Below the pieces are notes generated by a model that was given only the letters and a program-made list of their open reading frames with translations, was not told the origin of the DNA and did no database searches. A program made the position numbers and the translations under genes. DNA of 64,000 bases from Mycolicibacterium porcinum (lineage in GTDB: Bacteria; Actinomycetota; Actinomycetes; Mycobacteriales; Mycobacteriaceae): NCBI GenBank assembly GCA_002086835.1, contig MVIG01000001.1, positions 372,001 to 436,000 of the forward strand, in the 5' to 3' direction. This document shows positions 36,450-56,858 of this stretch, piece by piece. Positions within the stretch are counted from its first letter, which is position 1. Every line of letters starts with the position of its first letter.

Positions 36450-37429
36450 CCGGCGGCCTCGATGATGTTGCAGCGCAGGGATTCTGAAATGAATGCGGCG
36501 GCCTGCTGCATGGCCGGGACGGCTTCCGGGCTGAGTCGGGGCAGCGCTTGGAACACGTGCACCTGATCAGGCCACACCTGCAGTTCGGTGTCGCCGCCCG
36601 CGTCGCGGATGTCCGCGTCGAGTGAGCGCGCATCGGCGAGCAGCATCTCGGCGCCGCCGGCCTGGATCAGGGTACGCGGTAGCCGGCGCCCGCCCGCGAT
36701 GCCCAGCTTCAGTCGGGGATGGTTGACATCTACTTTCCCGCAATACAACTCGACGAGGCGGGCGGCATCGGCGACCCGAATCGCCGGGTCAGGGCGCAGG
36801 GCCTCGCGGGTGCGGGCGAGCGCGAACGTCAGGTCGATCAGTGGGGAGAACAGCACCAGTCCGGCGGGATGGGCGACATCGGGTTGCAGCAGCAGGTCCA
36901 CGGCGAGGTGTCCACCGGCGGAGTCGCCGGCCATCACGATGCGGTCCGGGTGGAGCCCGCGTTCGGTGCACAGCCAATCCCAGCCGGCGCGGACATCGTT
37001 GGCGGCGGCGGGGAACCGGTGTTCGGGAGCCAGCCGGTAGTCGACGCAGAACACAGGGAGCCCGGTCAGCCGCGACAGCCACGCGGTGAGCCGCCGGTGC
37101 GTTCGTGGTGAGCACAGCGCGAAACCGCTGCCGTGCAGGTAGTAGATGGCGCGTTCACCTTCGGTCACTCCGGGACCGCGCACCCATTCGCCGACCACAC
37201 GTCTGCCGTCGGCCATTCGTACGTCGACGTGTTCGACCCGCGTGCCCGACAGGGACGGTCCGAAGGTGGACATGATCCGCGCGATCAGTCTGCGTGAGGT
37301 CCACAGCCCCCAGCCGGTATCCGGCGGCAGGGCGGCGGTGACATTTCGCAGGGTAAGGCTGCTGACTTTGGATGCGCTGCGGGATCGCAACGATCCATTA
37401 CGCGGCACGGCCGGGCTACGTCCGGGCAT
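36446..37429 (-). CDS. Alpha/beta hydrolase of the hormone-sensitive lipase family
   Basis: A 327-residue esterase/lipase and the first gene of the five-gene operon. The start at 37429 follows GAGGAGG at a 4-5 nt gap. The oxyanion motif reads LHGSGF, a variant of HGGGF/W. The nucleophile is in GDSAGG, with the acid/His end segment QVHVFQALP. It would open an ester or lactone made by the Baeyer-Villiger enzyme downstream. The 0.1-kb upstream DNA before the zinc-ribbon gene end holds the probable operon promoter. Substrate is unknown. Confidence 0.9.
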   Translation of the reverse strand: MPGRSPAVPRNGSLRSRSASKVSSLTLRNVTAALPPDTGWGLWTSRRLIARIMSTFGPSLSGTRVEHVDVRMADGRRVVGEWVRGPGVTEGERAIYYLHGSGFALCSPRTHRRLTAWLSRLTGLPVFCVDYRLAPEHRFPAAANDVRAGWDWLCTERGLHPDRIVMAGDSAGGHLAVDLLLQPDVAHPAGLVLFSPLIDLTFALARTREALRPDPAIRVADAARLVELYCGKVDVNHPRLKLGIAGGRRLPRTLIQAGGAEMLLADARSLDADIRDAGGDTELQVWPDQVHVFQALPRLSPEAVPAMQQAAAFISESLRCNIIEAAG

Positions 37430-37531
37430 GGGGCCTCCTCGTTGAAGCGTGGAAGGAGTACACCAGCAATTGATGACATTTGTCAATGTCACCAATCGAA
37501 AATGGAAGGGTCCGGTCGAGTCCGCCCCGGA

Positions 37532-39310
37532 TCAGCGAATCGGGTCTCCGCGCCAACGAAAACTGTTGACGTACTTGCCCATATCCAAGGCAAGGTCCAA
37601 GTTGGCGCCGGACGGAATTCCGGGACCGAAATCCGGGCCGTACGCGTGATACGGGCCGGATGCGACCGCGATCAGGGCCAGGTCGTCCTTCACCGCGGTC
37701 AGGATGACCACCCGCATCCTCATGTAGTCGCCGGTGGCGTTTTGTGGCCAGCTGTCGAGGACCATGCCGTACCCAGGTTGATAGCCGACCATGGCATTCG
37801 GGATCTCGTAGTCCAGATCGGTGTCGGGATAGGTGTCCTCGACCAGGGCGGTGGCGATTTCCTTCGGTGTTCGGCCGGCCGCGGGCTTGCCGACGAGCTG
37901 CATGGTGCCGCCGTCGCCGGCCTGGAAATCCGCCGTCACCCCGTCGTCGGCGGTGGTGACCGAGTAGGCCGCGCCGGTGGCCGGATAGGCGACAGAGAAC
38001 GCGCCGTCCGGGGCGGTGAACCGAGGGTTGGTCGTCACCGGCTCCGTGGTCGGAGGACTGCCGCAGTCCGGCGGGCAGATGTAGCGGGCGGGTGCGCTGC
38101 TGACCAATGCAGACACTCCGACGAGGACGGCTGCCACCAACGTGACCCCGCCGGCCCACACTGTCAACATTCGGCGATCGTCGTCTCGGTGTGGCGGTTG
38201 TGACAACGCCCGTAACGCCACTCCGCAGTCCGGGCAGAACGCCATATCGGGAACGGTGTGGCCGCACTGCGGGCACGGCTGCGATTGGCCGGTGCTCGCG
38301 GTGTCGTGTGACTCGTACAGCAAGGCGAGTTGCAGGCCGACTCTCAATGCCAGCAGCGCCAGCGCCATCACGACGAGATGCACTGCCAGGATCCATATCT
38401 GTGGCACAGGCGCGACATCGACCACGCCGAGGATCACAAAGAACACGGGGACCGTCGCGGTTGTCAGTCCCAACGCCGAGCGCATGTGTTTCGGGCGGCG
38501 GGACGCGTTGTCCGACGGCGGGGTTAACCACAAGGCGACGCCGACGAGGGCGCCGGCGGCTGCGGCGGTCAACGGCACCGCCACGCCCTGGATTCCGGCC
38601 TGGACCAACAGCCCGCTCAACGGGCGGTCATGGTCCACCAGCCCGTCATCGAACTGTGGAGCCATCCGGCTGAGCGTGGCTGCCGCGGCGAAAGTGAGTG
38701 CGCCGAGGGCACCGATGGCGAAGCCGTCCAAGGATTTTCGTGTTCGCGTGCCCAACAGGCGGACTACCGCTGCGGGGGTGAGCATCAGCAGCATGGCGCC
38801 GAGCGGGATTCCCAGGCCATCCCGCATGATCCGGAACTGCGGGAGGCCGACGCCCATCGGCATGTCGTACTCCCGGGCCACCGCGGTTCCGGTGGTCAGT
38901 GCCCAGGCGAGGCCCGCGCCGATCCCCAACGCGGCGGTCAGCAGTAGCGTGCGGGCTGGAACACCCTGAAACGCAACGGATTTACGTAGATAGACGATGA
39001 ACAACAGGGGAACGCCCAACGCGGCGAGCGCGTTCATGGCAGCGGGGAGTCGCAAGAGGGCACAAGCGACCACGGCGAGCACCAGCACACCGACCGCCAG
39101 CCGGAACGGAGCGCGTGACTGCTGCGGCAGCCGTGGCAACAGCGAGCTGACCACCGACGGTCGGAGCAGATGCTTGCGCCCGGCGCAGTAGGCCCGGATT
39201 CGCAACCACCCGGTCACACCGCCCGACGGGGATAGGTAGGTACCACACTCTCCGCAGAAGGTGCCCGCCGGAACATCGGTGCGGCACACCCGGCATTCGA
39301 CGGACGGCAC
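37532..39310 (-). CDS. Double zinc-ribbon multi-pass membrane protein fused to a secreted domain
   Basis: A 592-residue protein read from a GTG at 39310. Zinc ribbon 1 has C6, C9, C19 and C22. About eight membrane segments follow between residues 65 and 340. Zinc ribbon 2 has C346, C349, C359 and C362. One further membrane segment spans about 380-402, then a domain of some 180 residues facing outside. The outer domain begins with the motif CPPDCG and ends SFRWRGDP. The two-gene paralogue just upstream (40486-41694 plus 39770-40489) is the same protein split in two. The ribbons should lie in the cytoplasm and the last domain outside. I recognise no characterised family. No EExxK or HxxxD pair of PrsW proteases is visible. 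Confidence 0.75.
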   Translation of the reverse strand: MPSVECRVCRTDVPAGTFCGECGTYLSPSGGVTGWLRIRAYCAGRKHLLRPSVVSSLLPRLPQQSRAPFRLAVGVLVLAVVACALLRLPAAMNALAALGVPLLFIVYLRKSVAFQGVPARTLLLTAALGIGAGLAWALTTGTAVAREYDMPMGVGLPQFRIMRDGLGIPLGAMLLMLTPAAVVRLLGTRTRKSLDGFAIGALGALTFAAAATLSRMAPQFDDGLVDHDRPLSGLLVQAGIQGVAVPLTAAAAGALVGVALWLTPPSDNASRRPKHMRSALGLTTATVPVFFVILGVVDVAPVPQIWILAVHLVVMALALLALRVGLQLALLYESHDTASTGQSQPCPQCGHTVPDMAFCPDCGVALRALSQPPHRDDDRRMLTVWAGGVTLVAAVLVGVSALVSSAPARYICPPDCGSPPTTEPVTTNPRFTAPDGAFSVAYPATGAAYSVTTADDGVTADFQAGDGGTMQLVGKPAAGRTPKEIATALVEDTYPDTDLDYEIPNAMVGYQPGYGMVLDSWPQNATGDYMRMRVVILTAVKDDLALIAVASGPYHAYGPDFGPGIPSGANLDLALDMGKYVNSFRWRGDPIR

Positions 39311-39346
39311 GGCGTCGCCGGGGTCAGCGGGCGGTTCCTGGTGGCG

Positions 39347-39625
39347 CTATTGCCGGTGCGGGCTGCCGATCCCATGGCGCCCGGTGGGTGGCGCCGCCGG
39401 TTCTACGTGAGTGGGGGTGAATCTGTTGGCGCCACCGGGCGTGACCTGCTTCTCGGTTGGCGCGGCAGGCGGCGTTGTGGTCGTTGTCGTCGTGGTGGTC
39501 GGCGTAGGAGTCGTGGTCTCGGGTGCCTTCTCGCCAGTGCCGCAAGCGCTGAGCCCGACCATTCCGATGATCGCGGCAGAGGCTGCGGCAGCTGCGAGGC
39601 GCCGTGTTGTTGGGCGTGACCTCAT
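39347..39625 (-). CDS. Thr-rich lipoprotein, copy B
   Basis: A 92-residue protein with a signal peptide and a clear lipobox, GLSAC, at about residues 24-28. The mature part begins with an acidic patch, then a tract of about 15 Thr and Pro residues including a run of ten Thr, and a short hydrophilic end. It starts 6 nt after the shared leader element at 39631-39646. The fused zinc-ribbon gene begins 36 nt after its stop, so the two form one unit. It is a paralogue of the lipoprotein at 43354. Confidence 0.7.
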   Translation of the reverse strand: MRSRPTTRRLAAAAASAAIIGMVGLSACGTGEKAPETTTPTPTTTTTTTTTPPAAPTEKQVTPGGANRFTPTHVEPAAPPTGRHGIGSPHRQ

Positions 39626-39630
39626 GATTC

Positions 39631-39646
39631 GTCCTAACTGTCCCCC
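39631..39646 (-). promoter_or_regulatory. Shared leader element, copy B
   Basis: GTCCTAACTGTCCCCC on the plus strand, so the minus-strand mRNA reads GGGGGACAGTTAGGAC just before the lipoprotein B start. It matches copy A (43648-43663) at 15 of 16 positions and includes the AGGA ribosome site. Confidence 0.65.
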
Positions 39647-39769
39647 GGCGGGCGGTTCAGAAACGGCACCTGAATCGAATTGCTAGCAAACACTAACCCA
39701 GCGCAGTTCGACATGGGCGTCAATTGGGAGGAATTTCGGACAGAAGGCTCGATCGTCCTGAACGCCAGG

Positions 39770-40489
39770 TCAGCGGTTGGGATCTCCCCGCCACCGGAAG
39801 CTGTTCACGTACTTGCCCATGTCCAGAGCCAACTGCAGGTTGGCGCCTGAGGGTTTACTGGCGCCCGACCCAGGCCCGAATTCCCGATAAGGTCCGACCG
39901 CTGACGCGACGAGCGCGAGGTCGTCCTTCACCGCGACCAACACCAGAACCCGCATCCGCGTGTAGTTGCTCGTGGCGCCCTGGGGCCAGCAATCGGCTAC
40001 CAGGCCGAATCCCGGGTGGTAACCGACCATCGCGTTGGGGATGTCGTAGGCCGTCTTGGTATCCGGAAACGTCTTGTTGACCAGGGAATTGGCGATGTCC
40101 TCGGGGCTGCGTCCGCCGGCCGGCTCGCTGAACAACCGCAGCATGCCGCCATCGCCGGCCTGGAATTCCGCGGTGACACCGTTCGGGTTGGTGGCGACCT
40201 TGTACGCCGAGGAAGCCACCGGATAGGAAACCGAGAAACTCCCGTCAGGAGCGGTGAACACCGGATTGATCGCCACGGCCTGTCCGGTCGGCGGCCGCCC
40301 GCAGTCCGGTGGGCACATGTAGCGGGCCGGGGATTCGCTCGTCGCGTGGGAGATCCAGGCCAGCACGCCGGCCACCAGGGCGATTCCGGTGCCAAGGACG
40401 GTCAGCAGTTTGAGGGCCGAGGTCCCGCGGATGGCCCGGGTCCTGCCTGTCGAAATGGGTACCGCATATCCGGGGAAGAACGTGCTCAT
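39770..40489 (-). CDS. Single-pass protein with CPPDCG secreted domain (split partner)
   Basis: A 239-residue protein whose start overlaps the zinc-ribbon gene stop by ATGA (40486-40489). One membrane segment lies at about residues 27-50. The exposed domain starts RYMCPPDCG and ends SFRWRGDPNR, aligning over its full length with the last third of the fused protein at 37532. The two Cys of CPPDCG probably form a small loop. An aromatic and Gly-rich core (IPNAMVGYHPGFG, then VKDDLALVASAVGPY) is the best conserved. The function is unknown. It is probably a receptor or inhibitor-like domain working with the membrane partner. Confidence 0.75.
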   Translation of the reverse strand: MSTFFPGYAVPISTGRTRAIRGTSALKLLTVLGTGIALVAGVLAWISHATSESPARYMCPPDCGRPPTGQAVAINPVFTAPDGSFSVSYPVASSAYKVATNPNGVTAEFQAGDGGMLRLFSEPAGGRSPEDIANSLVNKTFPDTKTAYDIPNAMVGYHPGFGLVADCWPQGATSNYTRMRVLVLVAVKDDLALVASAVGPYREFGPGSGASKPSGANLQLALDMGKYVNSFRWRGDPNR

Positions 40490-41694
40490 CCGGCATCCGA
40501 TCCCGGGTCACGGACCGGCCGGTGCTCGCGACGTTCTTCCCTCGACGTGCGTGACGACGCGTGGGTGGCCGCGCCGCAGTGAGGACAGAACGACATGTCG
40601 GGAACGATGTGACCGCAGCGCGGGCAGAAGATGGGTTGGTCGGACGCGATCTCATCCTGCGCTTCGTGCAGCAGCGCCAGATGCAGACCGATGCGTAGCG
40701 CCAGGATCGCGAGCAACGCGACAGCGATGTGCACGGTCAATTGGAACCACTGGGGGATCCGGGCCACGTCGACGAGACCCAGTGCCGTGTAGATGATCAG
40801 CACGGCGAACGCGCAGGAGAACATCACGAGCCGGACGTAACCGACGTGTTTGTCGGCCTTGGTGGCGGGGCGGGTGAACCACAACGCCGCCCCGATCAGG
40901 CCTCCGATGGACGCTGCGGTCAAAGGTACTGCGATACCGCGGATCCCGGCCTCGACGAGTAGCCCGGACAGCGGGCGGTTGTGCGCCACCATCCCGGTGG
41001 TCAACTGCGGCGCCAGCCGGGTCAGGGTGGCCGCCGCGGTGAATGCCGTCGCACCGAGGGCGCCGATCATGAAGCCGTCCAATGATTCCCGGCTCGCCGG
41101 TCGGGTCAGCCGGACCACGACGGCGGGCACCAGCATGAGGACCGCGCCGCCGAGCGGAATCCCCAGGCCGTTGCGCACGATCCGGGAGCCGGTCACTCCC
41201 ATGCCGAGTGGTACGCCGTAGGACTTGGCCATGATGTGGCCGGTGAGCAGTACCCATCCCACACCCAGTGCGATCCCGAGGAGAACGGTCAGCGCCAGGT
41301 TGACACGGTGCAGATCGTGGAAGGCGTCGGACTCGTAGAGATAGATCACGAACAGTAACGGGAGACCGAGTGCCGCGACGGCGATCAGGGCCGCGGGCAG
41401 CCTCAGCAGCGCACAGGCCACCAATCCGGCCACCAAGACCAGCATCGCGACGCGGAACGGGGTACGGGATTGGTGCGACAGGTGGGGGAACAGCGAGCTG
41501 GCGATCGACGGGCGCAGCAGGTGTTCGTCGGGGGCGACGCAGGATGCGCTGAGGCGCAGCCATTCCGGCCCGTCGCCCCGCTCCTTGTCGATCGGTACCC
41601 CGCACAGGCCGCAATACTTGCCGTCGGGCACGTCGACCTTGCAGACGCGGCACTCGGTGGTCGGAACGTCGGTGTCGTCAGGCGTGTCGGTCAT
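40486..41694 (-). CDS. Double zinc-ribbon multi-pass membrane protein (split partner)
   Basis: A 402-residue protein. Zinc ribbon 1 has C15, C18, C28 and C31. About eight membrane segments follow between residues 79 and 345. Zinc ribbon 2 has C357, C360, C370 and C373, and the protein ends with an Arg-rich tail. The ATG at 41694 overlaps the protease stop by ATGA, and its own stop overlaps the start of the secreted-domain gene. It is a full-length paralogue of the first two thirds of the fused protein at 37532 (for example both read SSLFPHLSHQSR/SSLLPRLPQQSR before the first helix). Function unknown. Confidence 0.75.
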   Translation of the reverse strand: MTDTPDDTDVPTTECRVCKVDVPDGKYCGLCGVPIDKERGDGPEWLRLSASCVAPDEHLLRPSIASSLFPHLSHQSRTPFRVAMLVLVAGLVACALLRLPAALIAVAALGLPLLFVIYLYESDAFHDLHRVNLALTVLLGIALGVGWVLLTGHIMAKSYGVPLGMGVTGSRIVRNGLGIPLGGAVLMLVPAVVVRLTRPASRESLDGFMIGALGATAFTAAATLTRLAPQLTTGMVAHNRPLSGLLVEAGIRGIAVPLTAASIGGLIGAALWFTRPATKADKHVGYVRLVMFSCAFAVLIIYTALGLVDVARIPQWFQLTVHIAVALLAILALRIGLHLALLHEAQDEIASDQPIFCPRCGHIVPDMSFCPHCGAATHASSRTSREERREHRPVRDPGSDAG

Positions 41695-43322
41695 CGGTGC
41701 GCCTTCTGCAGGAAGAGAAGATTTTTGACGAGGTTCTCCACGTCGGGTGTCCCCAGCCCGGTCACCATGTCGTAGCCGGGTGCCGCGGAGGCCACCGCGT
41801 TGCCGCCGAGAGTGACGTCACGGAAGGCGGGCAGCGGTGCTCCCTTGGCGACGCGGTACAGCAGTGGATTGAGGTCGCCGAGCGCGCGGCCGCCGTTGGC
41901 GACCAGGTACTGATTCATCACCGCGGCCATCGCGGCCCACAGCGGTGCGGACTGTGAAGTGCCGCCGCCGACCAGAACCTGGCCGTTCAGAACAATTTTC
42001 ACTCCGGTGAACGGATCGGCGACAGCGGAGATGTCCGGGGTCAGCCGCTTCTGGTCGCCGCCGGCCTCACTGCTGCCGGGGGCGGACAGGCCGCGCTGCC
42101 AGTCCGGGCGGTCGAACAACGACGACACCCCGCCGCCGGTGCCCTGCGACAGCGGGACGTCGAACCAGGCCTGCTCGGCCAGCCAGCCGCCGTCGGCATC
42201 GGTGGACAGCGTCGTGCCGCCGACATCGGTCATCTCCGGCACCGAGGCCACCGAGTCCAGACCGATGTCATCCTTGCCGGGCGCCGACGACCAGTCTTGT
42301 CCGCCTTTGCATTCCAGGCCGGCCAGGTCACCGCTGGCGTTGAACGCCGTGGTGCCGTGGGTGTGCGCGGCGGCCAGTGCCGAGCGGACGGGAGCGAGAT
42401 CGGCCGCGGTGATCAACTTGTCGCAGCCCCAGCCGATGGAGAAACTCCACACCGCACCGGGAAACTGCTGGTCCGCGGACTCGAGCATCTTCCCGATCTT
42501 CTCGTAGGCGCCGTCCCCCTGAACGGTCGGCCGGGCATTGACCACGACCTTCCGCGCATCCGGGGCGATGGCGTGGGCGACCTGCAGATCCATGGTGGTC
42601 TCACCGCGTGGTGCACTCGGTTGGCCGCCGACCACTGTGGGGGTGAACCTGGGCAGGCCGAAGGTGGTGGAGAACGTGTCCAGATCGGTCTGGTCGAAGC
42701 CGTCGAACGCGAAGAACACGATGGTGGTGCCCTTGCCGGTGAACCCCTGCGCGGACAGGCCCGCGAGGTTGTAGGTGTTGAGCACCCCTTGTGGTGTCAG
42801 GCCCTGGTCAGGAACATCGGTCGGCAGGTTCCGCAGGTCCGGCAGCGACATCCGGTACGGCGTGTAGCCGAGGATGCGACCGACCTCGGTGACCTCCCCG
42901 GCCAGCGGGTCTGGGATCGACGGCTGCTGCGGTGAGGCGTAGAACTCCTGACCGCGCCGGCCTCGGTAGTCGTGGATGTCGACCCCGAAAGCGGTTGCCA
43001 TGTCGGCGGATCGGCCTTCGGTGATCGCCCAGGCATCGCCGGGCCGCCACCGGACCGACAGGGCATGCTGCTCGGCCCACCCGAACAGCGCGGTCGGTCG
43101 GGCGGCATGGTGCAGCGTCATGGTGAGCTGCGCCGAACCGTTGTCAGCCGGGCCGAGATCGGTTGAGGCGGAAAGCAGTTGGGCATACGGGCCACTTATC
43201 TGAGCGGGCCCGTACGCCCAACCGCCCGTGGTGGAAGTGGTCCGCAGATCGGAGACCAGCAGGGCGCTGAACAGGACCAGCGCCAGTACTACCCGCCCGG
43301 GGGCGATGTTCATCCCGGCCAT
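41691..43322 (-). CDS. Sedolisin-type (S53) serine-carboxyl protease
   Basis: A 543-residue exported protease. A signal anchor lies at residues 8-24. The pro-domain follows at about 30-175, and the catalytic domain starts near 178. The S53 residues are present: E241 and D245 (GETTMD), the oxyanion Asp D332 (NASGD), and the nucleophile S456 (GGGTSQSAP). The C-terminal calcium site is seen in RDVTLGGN and GYDMVTGLG. Such enzymes are acid-active after removal of the pro-domain. It lies between lipoprotein A (31 nt upstream) and the zinc-ribbon gene, to which it is coupled by ATGA. Likely to cut a partner outside the membrane. Confidence 0.9.
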   Translation of the reverse strand: MAGMNIAPGRVVLALVLFSALLVSDLRTTSTTGGWAYGPAQISGPYAQLLSASTDLGPADNGSAQLTMTLHHAARPTALFGWAEQHALSVRWRPGDAWAITEGRSADMATAFGVDIHDYRGRRGQEFYASPQQPSIPDPLAGEVTEVGRILGYTPYRMSLPDLRNLPTDVPDQGLTPQGVLNTYNLAGLSAQGFTGKGTTIVFFAFDGFDQTDLDTFSTTFGLPRFTPTVVGGQPSAPRGETTMDLQVAHAIAPDARKVVVNARPTVQGDGAYEKIGKMLESADQQFPGAVWSFSIGWGCDKLITAADLAPVRSALAAAHTHGTTAFNASGDLAGLECKGGQDWSSAPGKDDIGLDSVASVPEMTDVGGTTLSTDADGGWLAEQAWFDVPLSQGTGGGVSSLFDRPDWQRGLSAPGSSEAGGDQKRLTPDISAVADPFTGVKIVLNGQVLVGGGTSQSAPLWAAMAAVMNQYLVANGGRALGDLNPLLYRVAKGAPLPAFRDVTLGGNAVASAAPGYDMVTGLGTPDVENLVKNLLFLQKAHR

Positions 43323-43353
43323 CGGCGAACGACCGACCCTCTGCGCTCCGCGT

Positions 43354-43641
43354 CTAGTTGTCGCCGGGGATGGCGGTCGGTGCCGGCGGTGCCTTCACTC
43401 CGGGGGTGAACAGGTTGCCGCCGGTGGGGTTGATCGACTTCTCGGTCGGCTCGACCGATGGCGGCGGGGCGGGGGTGGCCGGTGCGGTGGTGGTCGTCGT
43501 GGTCGTGGTGGTGGTCGGCGGGGTGGTCTCGGGGCCCTTCTTCTCCTCGGTACCGCACGCCGCGGTGAACGAGATCATCCCGATGACTGCCGCACCGCCG
43601 GCGATGACGGTGAGCCGACGAGTCAACTGCCCAGACTTCAT
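43354..43641 (-). CDS. Thr-rich lipoprotein, copy A
   Basis: A 95-residue protein with a basic head, a hydrophobic stretch (VIAGGAAVIGMISF) and a weak lipobox TAAC. An acidic patch precedes a run of ten Thr, then a Pro-rich segment and the block PTGGNLFTPGVKAPPAP, which echoes PGGANRFTPTHVEPAAP in copy B. It is the first gene of the lipoprotein-protease-zinc ribbon-secreted domain unit. The leader is nearly the same as in copy B, and it is divergent from imuA' across 292 nt. Confidence 0.7.
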   Translation of the reverse strand: MKSGQLTRRLTVIAGGAAVIGMISFTAACGTEEKKGPETTPPTTTTTTTTTTAPATPAPPPSVEPTEKSINPTGGNLFTPGVKAPPAPTAIPGDN

Positions 43642-43647
43642 GATGGT

Positions 43648-43663
43648 GTCCTCACTGTCCCCC
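43648..43663 (-). promoter_or_regulatory. Shared leader element, copy A
   Basis: GTCCTCACTGTCCCCC on the plus strand, 7 nt before the lipoprotein A start; the mRNA reads GGGGGACAGTGAGGAC. It differs from copy B at one position, evidence of a duplicated or selected leader. Confidence 0.65.
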
Positions 43664-43802
43664 GTGCTTTAACAGAACCTGGCCTTCGGTGAATCGCTGC
43701 GGATTCCCGCTACTTGCAACGCAAATGGCGGCCAGCCCCATCCCGAAGCGGGTTCTGGTGGGCGAACTCTAACCCAGAGTCCGCACCGCCGCAGAACTGC
43801 TC

Positions 43803-43831
43803 TGGCCGGCCCTGCCTTGCCGGGCCGGCCA
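43803..43831. other. 10-bp perfect inverted repeat in the imuA'/lipoprotein gap
   Basis: Arms TGGCCGGCCC (43803-43812) and GGGCCGGCCA (43822-43831) flank TGCCTTGCC. It lies between divergent genes, so it is not a normal terminator site unless transcripts overlap there. Possible regulator site or mRNA leader hairpin. Confidence 0.5.
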
Positions 43832-43881
43832 CCGCTGGCCGCGGCTTGACGCTGTCGGAGGGCGGGTGTTTACTCGAGCGA

Positions 43882-43897
43882 TCGAACATATATTCGA
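43882..43897 (+). promoter_or_regulatory. LexA (SOS) box upstream of imuA'
   Basis: TCGAAC-ATAT-ATTCGA matches the mycobacterial SOS box TCGAAC-N4-GTTCGA except for one base. It is 36 nt before the imuA' GTG, and TATATT inside it (43889-43894) could be the -10. Confidence 0.88.
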
Positions 43898-43933
43898 ACA
43901 TGCTGGGAAACTGATGGTGCGGGAGGTGTTGTT

Positions 43934-44641
43934 GTGACTGCTGCGGCGGAGCTCGATTTACGCCTTCTTACCCGCTCTGAACAGGTGGAACACCTCCGGC
44001 GCAAGATTGCTTCGGTGTCGGGGAAGGTGGGTCAGGCGCATCGTGGCGTTCCTCGGTCCCCGGCGGTAATCCCCGCCCGGGAGTCTTTGCTGGAGCTGCC
44101 GGAAACCCTGGTTGAGGTGTTGCCCGAGGGCCTGCCGACGACGCTGCCACGTGGGTCCGTCGCGGTGGCCGCAGGGGCCCGGTCGCTGTCGCTGGGGATG
44201 GTGGCGGCGGTGACGGCTGCGGGCGGTCATGCGGCGATCATCGGTCAACCCGACGTCGGCTTGCTGGCCGCGGTGGAGATGGGTGCCGATCTGAGCCGGC
44301 TAGCGGTCATCCCGGATCCGGGGGCAGATCCCGTAGAGGTGGCCGCGGTGCTGATGGACGGAATGGATCTGGTGGTGCTCGGGTTGGGCGGGCGTTCGGT
44401 GCCGCCGAGCCGGGCCCGGGTGATGGTGGCGCGAGCCAGGCAGAAAGGCTGCACCCTGCTGGTGACCGACGGTGATTGGCAGGGAGCATCGGCCCGGCTG
44501 GAGGCCCGGGTATCCGGTTATGAGGTGGCCGGTGCCGGTGAGGATGTTCCGGTGCCCGGGCGTGGCCGGATCAGCCGGGTCCGGCTGGCGATGCGGGCCC
44601 GTGGGCGGGGCATCGGATCGGCTTGTGCGGTAGGCGGGTAG
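43934..44641 (+). CDS. imuA': DNA damage-induced mutasome accessory protein ImuA'
   Basis: A 235-residue RecA-like protein from a GTG at 43934, with GGGAGG about 8 nt upstream. The family segments [28 protein letters not shown] and [26 protein letters not shown] are present, in the place of the Walker motifs of RecA. The gene is under a LexA box and is followed by imuB after 2 nt. ImuA', ImuB and DnaE2 form the mycobacterial mutasome for error-prone translesion synthesis after UV or mitomycin damage. Confidence 0.93.
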
Positions 44642-44643
44642 CC

Positions 44644-46233
44644 ATGCCCGCCGATTCCAGGGTGCTGGCCCTCTGGTGTATGGACTGGCCGGCGGTGGCT
44701 GCGGCGACGGCGGCAGGCTTGATGCCGACGGTGCCGGTCGCGGTCACTCTGGCCAACCGGGTGATCGCGTGCTCGGCATCGGCGCGGGCGGCCGGGGTCC
44801 GGCGCGGGCTGCGTCGACGTGAGGCGCAGGCCCGGTGCCCGCAGCTGCATGTCGTCACCGCCGACCCGGCCAGGGACGCCCGCCATTTCGAGAACGTGAC
44901 GCTTGCCGTCGACGATCTGGTGCCGCGGGCCGAGGTGCTGCGTCCGGGACTGCTGGTGCTCTCGGTACGCGGCGCGGCGCGGTACTTCGGGTCCGAACAG
45001 GTTGCGGCCGAACGATTGATCGATGCCGTCGCCGCGGCGGGGGCCGAATGTCAGGTCGGTATCGCCGATCAGCTTTCCACCGCAGTCTTCGCCGCCAGGG
45101 CGGGGTGCATCGTCGAACCCGGGAACGACGCGCGGTTTCTGTCCGGGCTGTCGATCCGGCAGTTGGCCACCGAACCGGCCCTGGCCGCCCCCGGCCGCGA
45201 GGACCTGGCAGACCTGTTGTGGCGGATGGGCATCCGAACCCTGGGGCAGTTCGCCGAGTTGTCCCGCACCGATATCGCCTCCCGGTTCGGGGCAGATGCG
45301 GTGACGGCGCACCGGTTCGCCTGTGGCGAGCCGGACCGGGGTCCCTCCGGGCGGGATCCGGCCGCCGAACTCGATGCGGTGATGAACTGTGACCCGCCGA
45401 TCGAAAGGGTGGATGCGGCGGCCTTCGCGGGACGGTCGCTGGCCAGTGACCTGCACCGTCATCTGGAGGCGGCCGGGGTGGGCTGTACCCGGCTGGCCAT
45501 CCACGCCGTCACTGCCAATGGCGAAGAGCTGGAACGGGTCTGGCGGTGTGCGGAACCGCTGACCGAGGACGCCACCGCCGACCGGGTGCGGTGGCAGCTG
45601 GACGGCTGGCTGAACCGCCGCACCGCTGATCGGCCCAGTGCGCCCCTCGTCATGTTGCGCCTGCGCCCGGTGGAGGTGGTGTCGGCGGCGGCGCTGCAGT
45701 TGCCGCTGTGGGGCGGGATGGGAGAGGAGGACCGGTTGCGGGCCCGGCGGGCGCTGCTGCGGGTGCAGGGCCTGCTCGGGCCGGAGGCGGTACAGGTGCC
45801 GGTGCTCAGCGGCGGGCGTGGGCCTGCCGAGCGCATCACCTTCACGCAATTGGGGGATGAGCCGGTACCGCGAGCCGATCCGCGGCAGCCCTGGCCCGGC
45901 CAGCTGCCCGAGCCCTCACCGACCGTACTGCTCGATGACCCGGTGGAACTTCTTGACGTACAGGGAAACCCGGTCCGGGTCACCAGCCGCGGGTTGTTCT
46001 CGGCCGATCCGGCGCAGCTGTCCGGCGCCGGCCGCCGTGACGGCAGGCTGCGCTGGTGGGCGGGGCCGTGGCCGGTCGACGAGCGGTGGTGGGACCCGGA
46101 GAACCGAGGGGCCGGGCGCACCGCGCGGGTTCAGGTGCTGCTGCGGCACGACGAGCGGGACGACGGGGGAGACCAGGCGCTGTTGTTGTGTTACCGGCAG
46201 CGTCGGTGGTATCTGGAGGGTGCCTACGAATGA
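44644..46233 (+). CDS. imuB: Inactive Y-family polymerase-like protein ImuB
   Basis: A 529-residue protein starting at the ATG at 44644, 2 nt after the imuA' stop. The Y-family polymerase fold is clear, but the catalytic Asp/Glu sites are replaced, as is usual in ImuB. The beta-clamp-binding motif QLPLWG lies at residues 352-357; it brings the mutasome to the replication clamp. A Pro/Arg-rich C-terminal region (SRGLFSADPAQLSG, WWAGPWPVDERWW) mediates contacts with ImuA' and DnaE2. Its operon is SOS-controlled through the box at 43882. Confidence 0.95.
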   Translation: MPADSRVLALWCMDWPAVAAATAAGLMPTVPVAVTLANRVIACSASARAAGVRRGLRRREAQARCPQLHVVTADPARDARHFENVTLAVDDLVPRAEVLRPGLLVLSVRGAARYFGSEQVAAERLIDAVAAAGAECQVGIADQLSTAVFAARAGCIVEPGNDARFLSGLSIRQLATEPALAAPGREDLADLLWRMGIRTLGQFAELSRTDIASRFGADAVTAHRFACGEPDRGPSGRDPAAELDAVMNCDPPIERVDAAAFAGRSLASDLHRHLEAAGVGCTRLAIHAVTANGEELERVWRCAEPLTEDATADRVRWQLDGWLNRRTADRPSAPLVMLRLRPVEVVSAAALQLPLWGGMGEEDRLRARRALLRVQGLLGPEAVQVPVLSGGRGPAERITFTQLGDEPVPRADPRQPWPGQLPEPSPTVLLDDPVELLDVQGNPVRVTSRGLFSADPAQLSGAGRRDGRLRWWAGPWPVDERWWDPENRGAGRTARVQVLLRHDERDDGGDQALLLCYRQRRWYLEGAYE

Positions 46234-56842: not shown

Positions 56843-56858
56843 TCGAACAAATGTTCGA
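56843..56858 (+). promoter_or_regulatory. Perfect LexA (SOS) box of dnaE2
   Basis: TCGAAC-AAAT-GTTCGA matches the mycobacterial SOS box exactly. It ends one base before the -10 TATACT, so LexA would block the promoter directly. Confidence 0.95.

Follow-up and report, generated by a model that had tools for sequence, protein, structure and literature searches.

A conserved and apparently undescribed mycobacterial gene module joining an S53 protease to a tethered ectodomain and a PrsW-like membrane core

A 64,000-nucleotide stretch of Mycolicibacterium porcinum DNA (hereafter the window) carries a gene module built around an S53 (sedolisin) protease, which represents a real, apparently undescribed system conserved in mycobacteria. 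The constant pair of this module is the S53 protease and an ectodomain protein, and its usual third part is a membrane core, read below as a putative pseudo-protease, which is often fused to the ectodomain. The evidence for this comes from the gene set of the window, from sequence and structural comparisons of each part, and from surveys of the genus, order and class, in which loci and genomes are given by L and G numbers.

Six open reading frames, all on the minus strand within 37532-43641, were verified by listing and translation and form two related units, as a first, sequence-only reading of this DNA had described. Unit A comprises lipoprotein A, the S53 protease, an eight-helix zinc-ribbon membrane protein and a single-pass ectodomain protein. 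The ATGA overlaps described for its last three genes are present, one at the S53/zinc-ribbon junction and another at the zinc-ribbon/ectodomain junction. Unit B has no protease and consists of a second lipoprotein and a fused protein; between the two units, the zinc-ribbon proteins are 54% identical and the ectodomains 62%. The features are listed below.

43648..43664, minus strand: 17-base leader CGGGGGACAGTGAGGAC located 5' of lipoprotein A, its end overlapping the likely ribosome-binding site
43354..43641, minus strand: lipoprotein A, 95 aa, an open reading frame with a lipobox-bearing signal, a Thr/Pro-rich linker and a conserved tail (PTEK...FTP...PPAPTAIPGDN)
41691..43322, minus strand: S53 (sedolisin) protease, 543 aa, with an N-terminal signal or anchor, a prodomain and intact catalytic residues
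42600-42602, 42588-42590, 42327-42329 and 41955-41957, minus strand: codons of the S53 catalytic set, E241, D245, D332 and S456 respectively
40486..41694, minus strand: zinc-ribbon membrane protein A, 402 aa, with an N-terminal ribbon, an eight-helix PrsW-like core without catalytic residues and a C-terminal ribbon
41602..41652, minus strand: N-terminal zinc ribbon of protein A (C15-C31), CxxC pairs
40573..40626, minus strand: C-terminal zinc ribbon of protein A, with Pfam DZR and Zn_ribbon matches slightly below the cut-off
39770..40489, minus strand: ectodomain protein A, 239 aa, with one membrane helix, a CPPDCG motif and a domain of predicted PsbP/Mog1 fold
39631..39647, minus strand: 17-base leader CGGGGGACAGTTAGGAC located 5' of lipoprotein B, from the comparison of the A and B leaders
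39347..39625, minus strand: lipoprotein B, 92 aa, an open reading frame paralogous to lipoprotein A
37532..39310, minus strand: unit B fused protein, 592 aa, GTG start, with zinc ribbons, a PrsW-like core, a helix and a PsbP-like ectodomain

The nearest named relatives, as judged by the membrane protein, are M. setense, M. septicum, M. senegalense, M. peregrinum and further Mycobacterium species, with membrane protein identity of 87-93% in nine of the 16 loci of the nearest-relative search.

The protease has, on its sequence, a sedolisin-type catalytic domain of the ordinary kind with its residues intact. Profile matches have been obtained to kumamolisin (E 3e-43), sedolisin (1.3e-25) and tripeptidyl-peptidase 1 (5.6e-22), the alignment with kumamolisin 1t1e spans the prodomain to near the C terminus, and the prodomain matches Pro-kuma_activ in Pfam at E 1.7e-4, slightly under the cut-off. 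Residues E241, D245, D332 and S456, aligned with kumamolisin, are invariant in all 14 aligned module S53 sequences, as are D502 and D518, which we take to be the calcium-binding aspartates, and the E..MD and GGTS motifs with the catalytic E, D and S occur in all 36 module S53 rows. In a tree of these 36 rows (L013 and L090 being the same place), the module S53s form one group with a support of 100/99, apart from 16 S53s of other families of the class. The S53 family extends far beyond the module, with S53-like matches in 51 of 296 class genomes, and outside the genus these are mostly distant S53s. No module partners were present in the sole non-module S53 neighbourhood inspected, that of L132. 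The module S53 of L089 seems to carry a lipobox of its own (LAGC), and an upstream lipoprotein was not found there.

Since S53 enzymes are acid endopeptidases active at low pH (PMC6411800), and since the loci are multi-copy in several genomes, as nutritional enzymes are, the protease could be a degradative or nutrient-scavenging acid enzyme, served by accessory envelope proteins for its maturation and display, with no regulation. We regard this as improbable, given that the 16 S53s from other families fall outside the module group, that the L132 neighbourhood is without such partners, and that the membrane-ectodomain pair exists without any S53 in unit B.

The membrane protein had been described as a double zinc-ribbon protein, and the two CxxC pairs of each ribbon are indeed present; the ribbons, however, flank the membrane core at its opposite ends, with best Pfam scores slightly under the cut-offs, and are missing in five of the 28 alignment members (L016, L017, L024, L025 and L026). 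The AlphaFold model of zinc-ribbon protein A shows eight long helices (mean pLDDT 89.2, pTM 0.89), for which the fold search gave no significant solved fold. A weak match of the fused-protein model to 7tm3_6 (E 0.28, prob 0.97), absent among the matches listed for the protein A model, concerns a chain of the multipass translocon that is possibly TMEM147, and may be an APH-1-like match. Only one of the 28 members matches PF13367 (PrsW), at E 8.3e-4, under the curated cut-off, and over profile positions 4-188 of 196. When the core was compared with a PrsW set of 23 domains obtained via PF13367, which included that of the genome itself and from which the genuine PrsW rows L151, L153 and L158 were left out, a score of 37.0 and a probability of 56.9 were reached, whereas the 30 controls, of which one was a reversed and 29 were block-shuffled alignments, scored at most 20.6. 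A distant group of six members is related to the core at a probability of 98.9, and its comparison with PrsW gave a score of 58.5 and a probability of 95.0.

In the PrsW domains, the motif-1 EE and the motif-2 Glu occur in 23 of 23 and the motif-3 His in 22 of 23, and all of these residues are replaced in the 28 core members. The joint alignment shows that the core retains the DG-motif Asp (21/28) and the motif-3 Pro (28/28), while the motif-4 column has a His in four of the 28 members; four of the six distant-group members retain the motif-2 Glu. The host genome holds an ordinary PrsW elsewhere, with its motifs intact. Taken together, these comparisons suggest that the core is remotely related to the PrsW clan and has lost the three catalytic sites, and it looks like a pseudo-protease in an alignment that is uncertain at such distance. 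PrsW domains with a zinc-ribbon fusion have been noted before as likely "signaling peptidases" (Zhang et al., 2012, PMC3482391).

Distant relatives of the membrane core have been observed in L077, L078, L080 and L092. In L078 (5503-7617 and 7673-9736), the relative has an additional extracytoplasmic segment and its neighbour is a C11 clostripain-family protein (Pfam E 4.1e-20); a scaffold of this type may here be combined with another protease. A ribbon-less relative stands beside a large nSTAND1-WD40 protein in L092 (7402-13373), and in L077 (7503-9925) the gene next to the relative encodes a Pro/Gly-rich protein with one hydrophobic segment, the flanking genes being presumably coaE-like and uvrB-like. 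Upstream of S53 in the other-family modules, as at L084 (5743-8151) and L080 (8901-11417), a protein some 800 aa long containing several hydrophobic segments is encoded; it constitutes one family (cl11) in four loci, L080, L081, L082 and L084, with the L080 copy matching DUF418 weakly. The idea, taken from sequence reading, that the ectodomain of the module recurs in the distant relatives of L077, L078, L080, L084 and L092 received no support from profile comparison and was set aside.

The outer domain had been called secreted, but it is not free, as one predicted helix (residues 378-403 of the fused-protein AlphaFold model, mean pLDDT 82.0) tethers it. Its fold, which was modelled on the fused protein of unit B, the ectodomain of protein A being homologous, is predicted to be of the PsbP/Mog1 type, with Foldseek matches to PsbP, Mog1 and the M. 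tuberculosis proteins Apa and MTC28 (prob 0.99-1.00, best E 9.0e-4, TM by target 0.63). The ectodomain matched no Pfam or NCBIfam family, and no sequence-level relative of it was found. Membership in Lpp-LpqN (PF10738) was considered and not supported, with no Pfam match at E 1 and three LpqN-family domains of the same genome falling within the shuffle range in profile comparison. The fold matches also include Tsi3, an immunity protein whose structure was determined together with that of its effector Tse3, and SciW, whose entry describes a complex with an effector transmembrane domain; PsbP/Mog1-fold proteins such as these serve elsewhere as enzyme inhibitor or chaperone.

PrsW fusions to C-terminal domains have been proposed as toxin export and processing systems (PMC3482391), and a core of this kind might thus extrude or process a C-terminal effector in the manner of polymorphic-toxin export. 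This has been rejected as very improbable, for all 28 core members lack the three catalytic sites and the C-terminal domain, rather than being polymorphic, is conserved (mean column identity 68% over 13 sequences) and carries the predicted PsbP/Mog1 fold without a family match.

In a survey of the genus, for which E was set at no more than 1e-20 for each protein and the genome lists were compared by eye, the zinc-ribbon protein was found in 99 of 198 genomes and the S53 protease in the identical 99, a count drawn from related genomes and so not equivalent to 198 independent tests. Up to six S53 matches occur per genome. The co-occurrence that the sequence-only reading had named as its test is upheld across related genomes, and the protease gene is not, within the genus, mostly found without the zinc-ribbon gene. 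Among 23 module S53 loci from 11 genomes of the genus, the ectodomain gene adjoins S53 in all 23 and the membrane gene in 20, and the tightest partner of the protease is accordingly the ectodomain protein, not the zinc-ribbon protein. In the 20 loci having the membrane gene, this and the ectodomain gene are separate in 12 and fused in eight. The remaining loci, L123, L124 and L125, keep the S53 and ectodomain genes without the membrane gene, which was likely lost, as these loci fall within the module group in the tree; this indicates that the scaffold is not always needed. A second copy in L039, of 501 aa, proved to be due to an assembly gap (a run of N read as X) and was excluded.

Beyond the genus, the zinc-ribbon protein is matched at E 0.001 in 18 of the 249 genomes of an order sample. 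Fifteen of these belong to the same genus and have the S53, membrane and ectodomain genes together, G003, from a different family, carries all three genes, and G102 and G161 show weak matches, the stretches examined containing no further module gene. When the G003 protein served as query, matches were obtained in 22 of 394 genomes of a class sample; G340, G396 and G405, which belong to one genus of a further family, have the S53 and zinc-ribbon genes, followed by the ectodomain gene in G340 and G396, while in G405 the contig ends there. The module occupies several chromosomal places with differing neighbours, and in the plasmid collection no record matched the membrane protein at E 1e-5. That unrelated genes simply came to lie together by accident is a view with nothing beyond the tandem duplication inside the window in its favour, and it is almost certainly wrong: the two genes are found in one and the same set of 99 among 198 genomes, in several chromosomal surroundings and in other families of the class, with gene fusions and 4-base overlaps. 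Chance adjacency was rejected on this conservation of co-occurrence, adjacency, order and repeated fusions.

The same figures bear on the main rival to the function proposed below, in which the membrane-tethered ectodomain inhibits or chaperones the S53 protease and so renders it harmless during export, the core being an anchor only and sending no signal inwards. Such an action would agree with the constant ectodomain-S53 pairing (23/23), which persists without the membrane gene in three loci, with the presence of Tsi3 and SciW among the fold matches, and with the optional nature of the ribbons. It is nonetheless judged somewhat unlikely, as it leaves unexplained why 20 of 23 loci retain an eight-helix core, with repeated fusions, and why unit B has a scaffold and ectodomain without a protease.

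Of 36 loci, 26 (25 whole and one cut by a contig end) have, directly upstream of S53, a lipoprotein with a Thr/Pro-rich linker and the conserved tail, 12 of the 36 (L030-L041) being close relatives of the window; a match in L088 was a false positive and was not counted. A motif search found none upstream of S53 in the other 10 of 36 loci, and of these L088, L089, L091, L123 and L125 were also read in three frames. Two lipoprotein copies stand in tandem in the M. peregrinum loci L031, L032 and L034, and in the host genome good matches are limited to lipoproteins A and B, the next match having an E of 6.5e-4. Further such lipoproteins have been observed in L086 (around 15677) and L128 (16762-17001), at about 4.5 and 6 kb from the module, the former with no S53 of its own in the stretch and the latter at the stretch end.

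Despite the divergence of the two proteins, the 17-base leader is identical before lipoproteins A and B save for one free position, and in its exact form it is present at just two places in the 6.96-Mb host genome. With up to two mismatches, three places were found as against four in a reversed control, and thus only exact matches carry weight; looser forms precede the lipoproteins of L037, L042, L126 and L131. A scan of 37000-44200 for sigma-70 promoters found none. A LexA-like box (TCGAACATATATTCGA, 43882-43897) lies 36 bases before a divergent gene (43934-44641) that precedes a Y-family polymerase gene (IMS domain, 44623-46233), and we take these two genes to be probably imuA'/imuB. An SOS origin of the unit A promoter was rejected, since the box stands about 240 bases from lipoprotein A and, being nearer the divergent gene, more likely serves the latter. 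A second LexA-like box with perfect inverted arms, TCGAACAAATGTTCGA, is found at 56843-56858.

From the parts and linkage observed in these genomes, we infer docking, substrate and signalling, and propose that unit A is a dedicated surface proteolysis device, in which a pseudo-protease scaffold with a tethered ectodomain docks or controls the S53 protease. This is advanced tentatively, with a likelihood we place somewhat short of even. In the proposed device, the pseudo-protease core and the ectodomain would form one membrane scaffold or receptor, whose outward-facing ectodomain would dock the protease and set its activity or target. The lipoprotein, presenting a conserved peptide on a flexible linker, may be a tethered substrate or regulator of the protease, and the cytoplasm-facing ribbons, though optional, could report the state inwards. 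Unit B, a paralogue that lacks the protease but has a matching leader, might share its ligand with unit A or compete with unit A for it. The simplest reading is that the tethered partner docks or controls the protease and that the core is a scaffold, while the sensing of proteolysis and its relay to the ribbons constitute a bolder form. In this bolder form, the module would be a new bacterial surface receptor, in which a scaffold of the intramembrane-protease type, catalytically dead and bearing a tethered PsbP-like ectodomain, senses what its own S53 protease does to the partner lipoprotein and signals across the membrane to the cytoplasmic ribbons, a proposal that we consider doubtful. Neither an anti-sigma substrate nor a sigma factor was present among the family matches of the six module genes.

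Among the papers listed in searches of one open-access library, most subscription papers lying outside it, none describes the module by title or abstract, and no paper among the matches listed combines S53 with Mycolicibacterium. Together with the occurrence in the same 99 genomes and the conserved adjacency, order and fusions, this agrees with the earlier suggestion of a real, undescribed envelope system. The further suggestion that its genes match nothing characterised holds only in part, as the S53 protease has an ordinary sedolisin-type catalytic domain, the core appears to be distantly related to the PrsW clan while missing its catalytic residues, and a PsbP/Mog1 fold is predicted for the outer domain. 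Half of the sampled genomes of the genus (99/198) thus carry a module on which the titles and abstracts listed are silent. For fast-growing mycobacteria it offers a defined surface protease with a candidate partner, the ectodomain, and a candidate substrate, the lipoprotein. Should the pseudo-protease reading be true, bacteria, too, would have turned the intramembrane-protease fold into a non-catalytic scaffold, and the module would provide a compact genetic model of it.

Several known systems share features with the module. With sedolisin and kumamolisin (MEROPS S53; PDB 1t1e, 1sio and 1ga1), the protease has in common the catalytic E, D and S, the oxyanion D and the prodomain, but the module S53s constitute a separate group tied to the module genes, and a lipoprotein gene precedes S53 in the window. 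The ectodomain shares its predicted fold with CyanoP, Mog1, the M. tuberculosis proteins MTC28 and Apa, and Tsi3, while differing from them in having no detectable sequence relationship, in being membrane-tethered beside CPPDCG and in its frequent fusion to the membrane core. When compared to the PrsW family (PF13367; B. subtilis PrsW), the core has the eight predicted helices, can be aligned over almost the whole domain in one member and mostly keeps the DG and P landmarks; it is distinguished by the absence of both motif-1 Glu, the motif-2 Glu and the motif-3 His, and by its coupling to a secreted S53 protease, a lipoprotein and an ectodomain. Two sources support a CPBP/PrsW/APH-1 grouping (PMC6588880) and a similarity between TMEM147 and APH-1 (PMC7505659). 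With APH-1 and TMEM147 the module would share, by analogy only, the idea of a membrane scaffold of, or like, this group acting together with a partner bearing a large outer domain, and the proposed pseudo-intramembrane-protease receptor would be comparable in principle with APH-1-type scaffolds.
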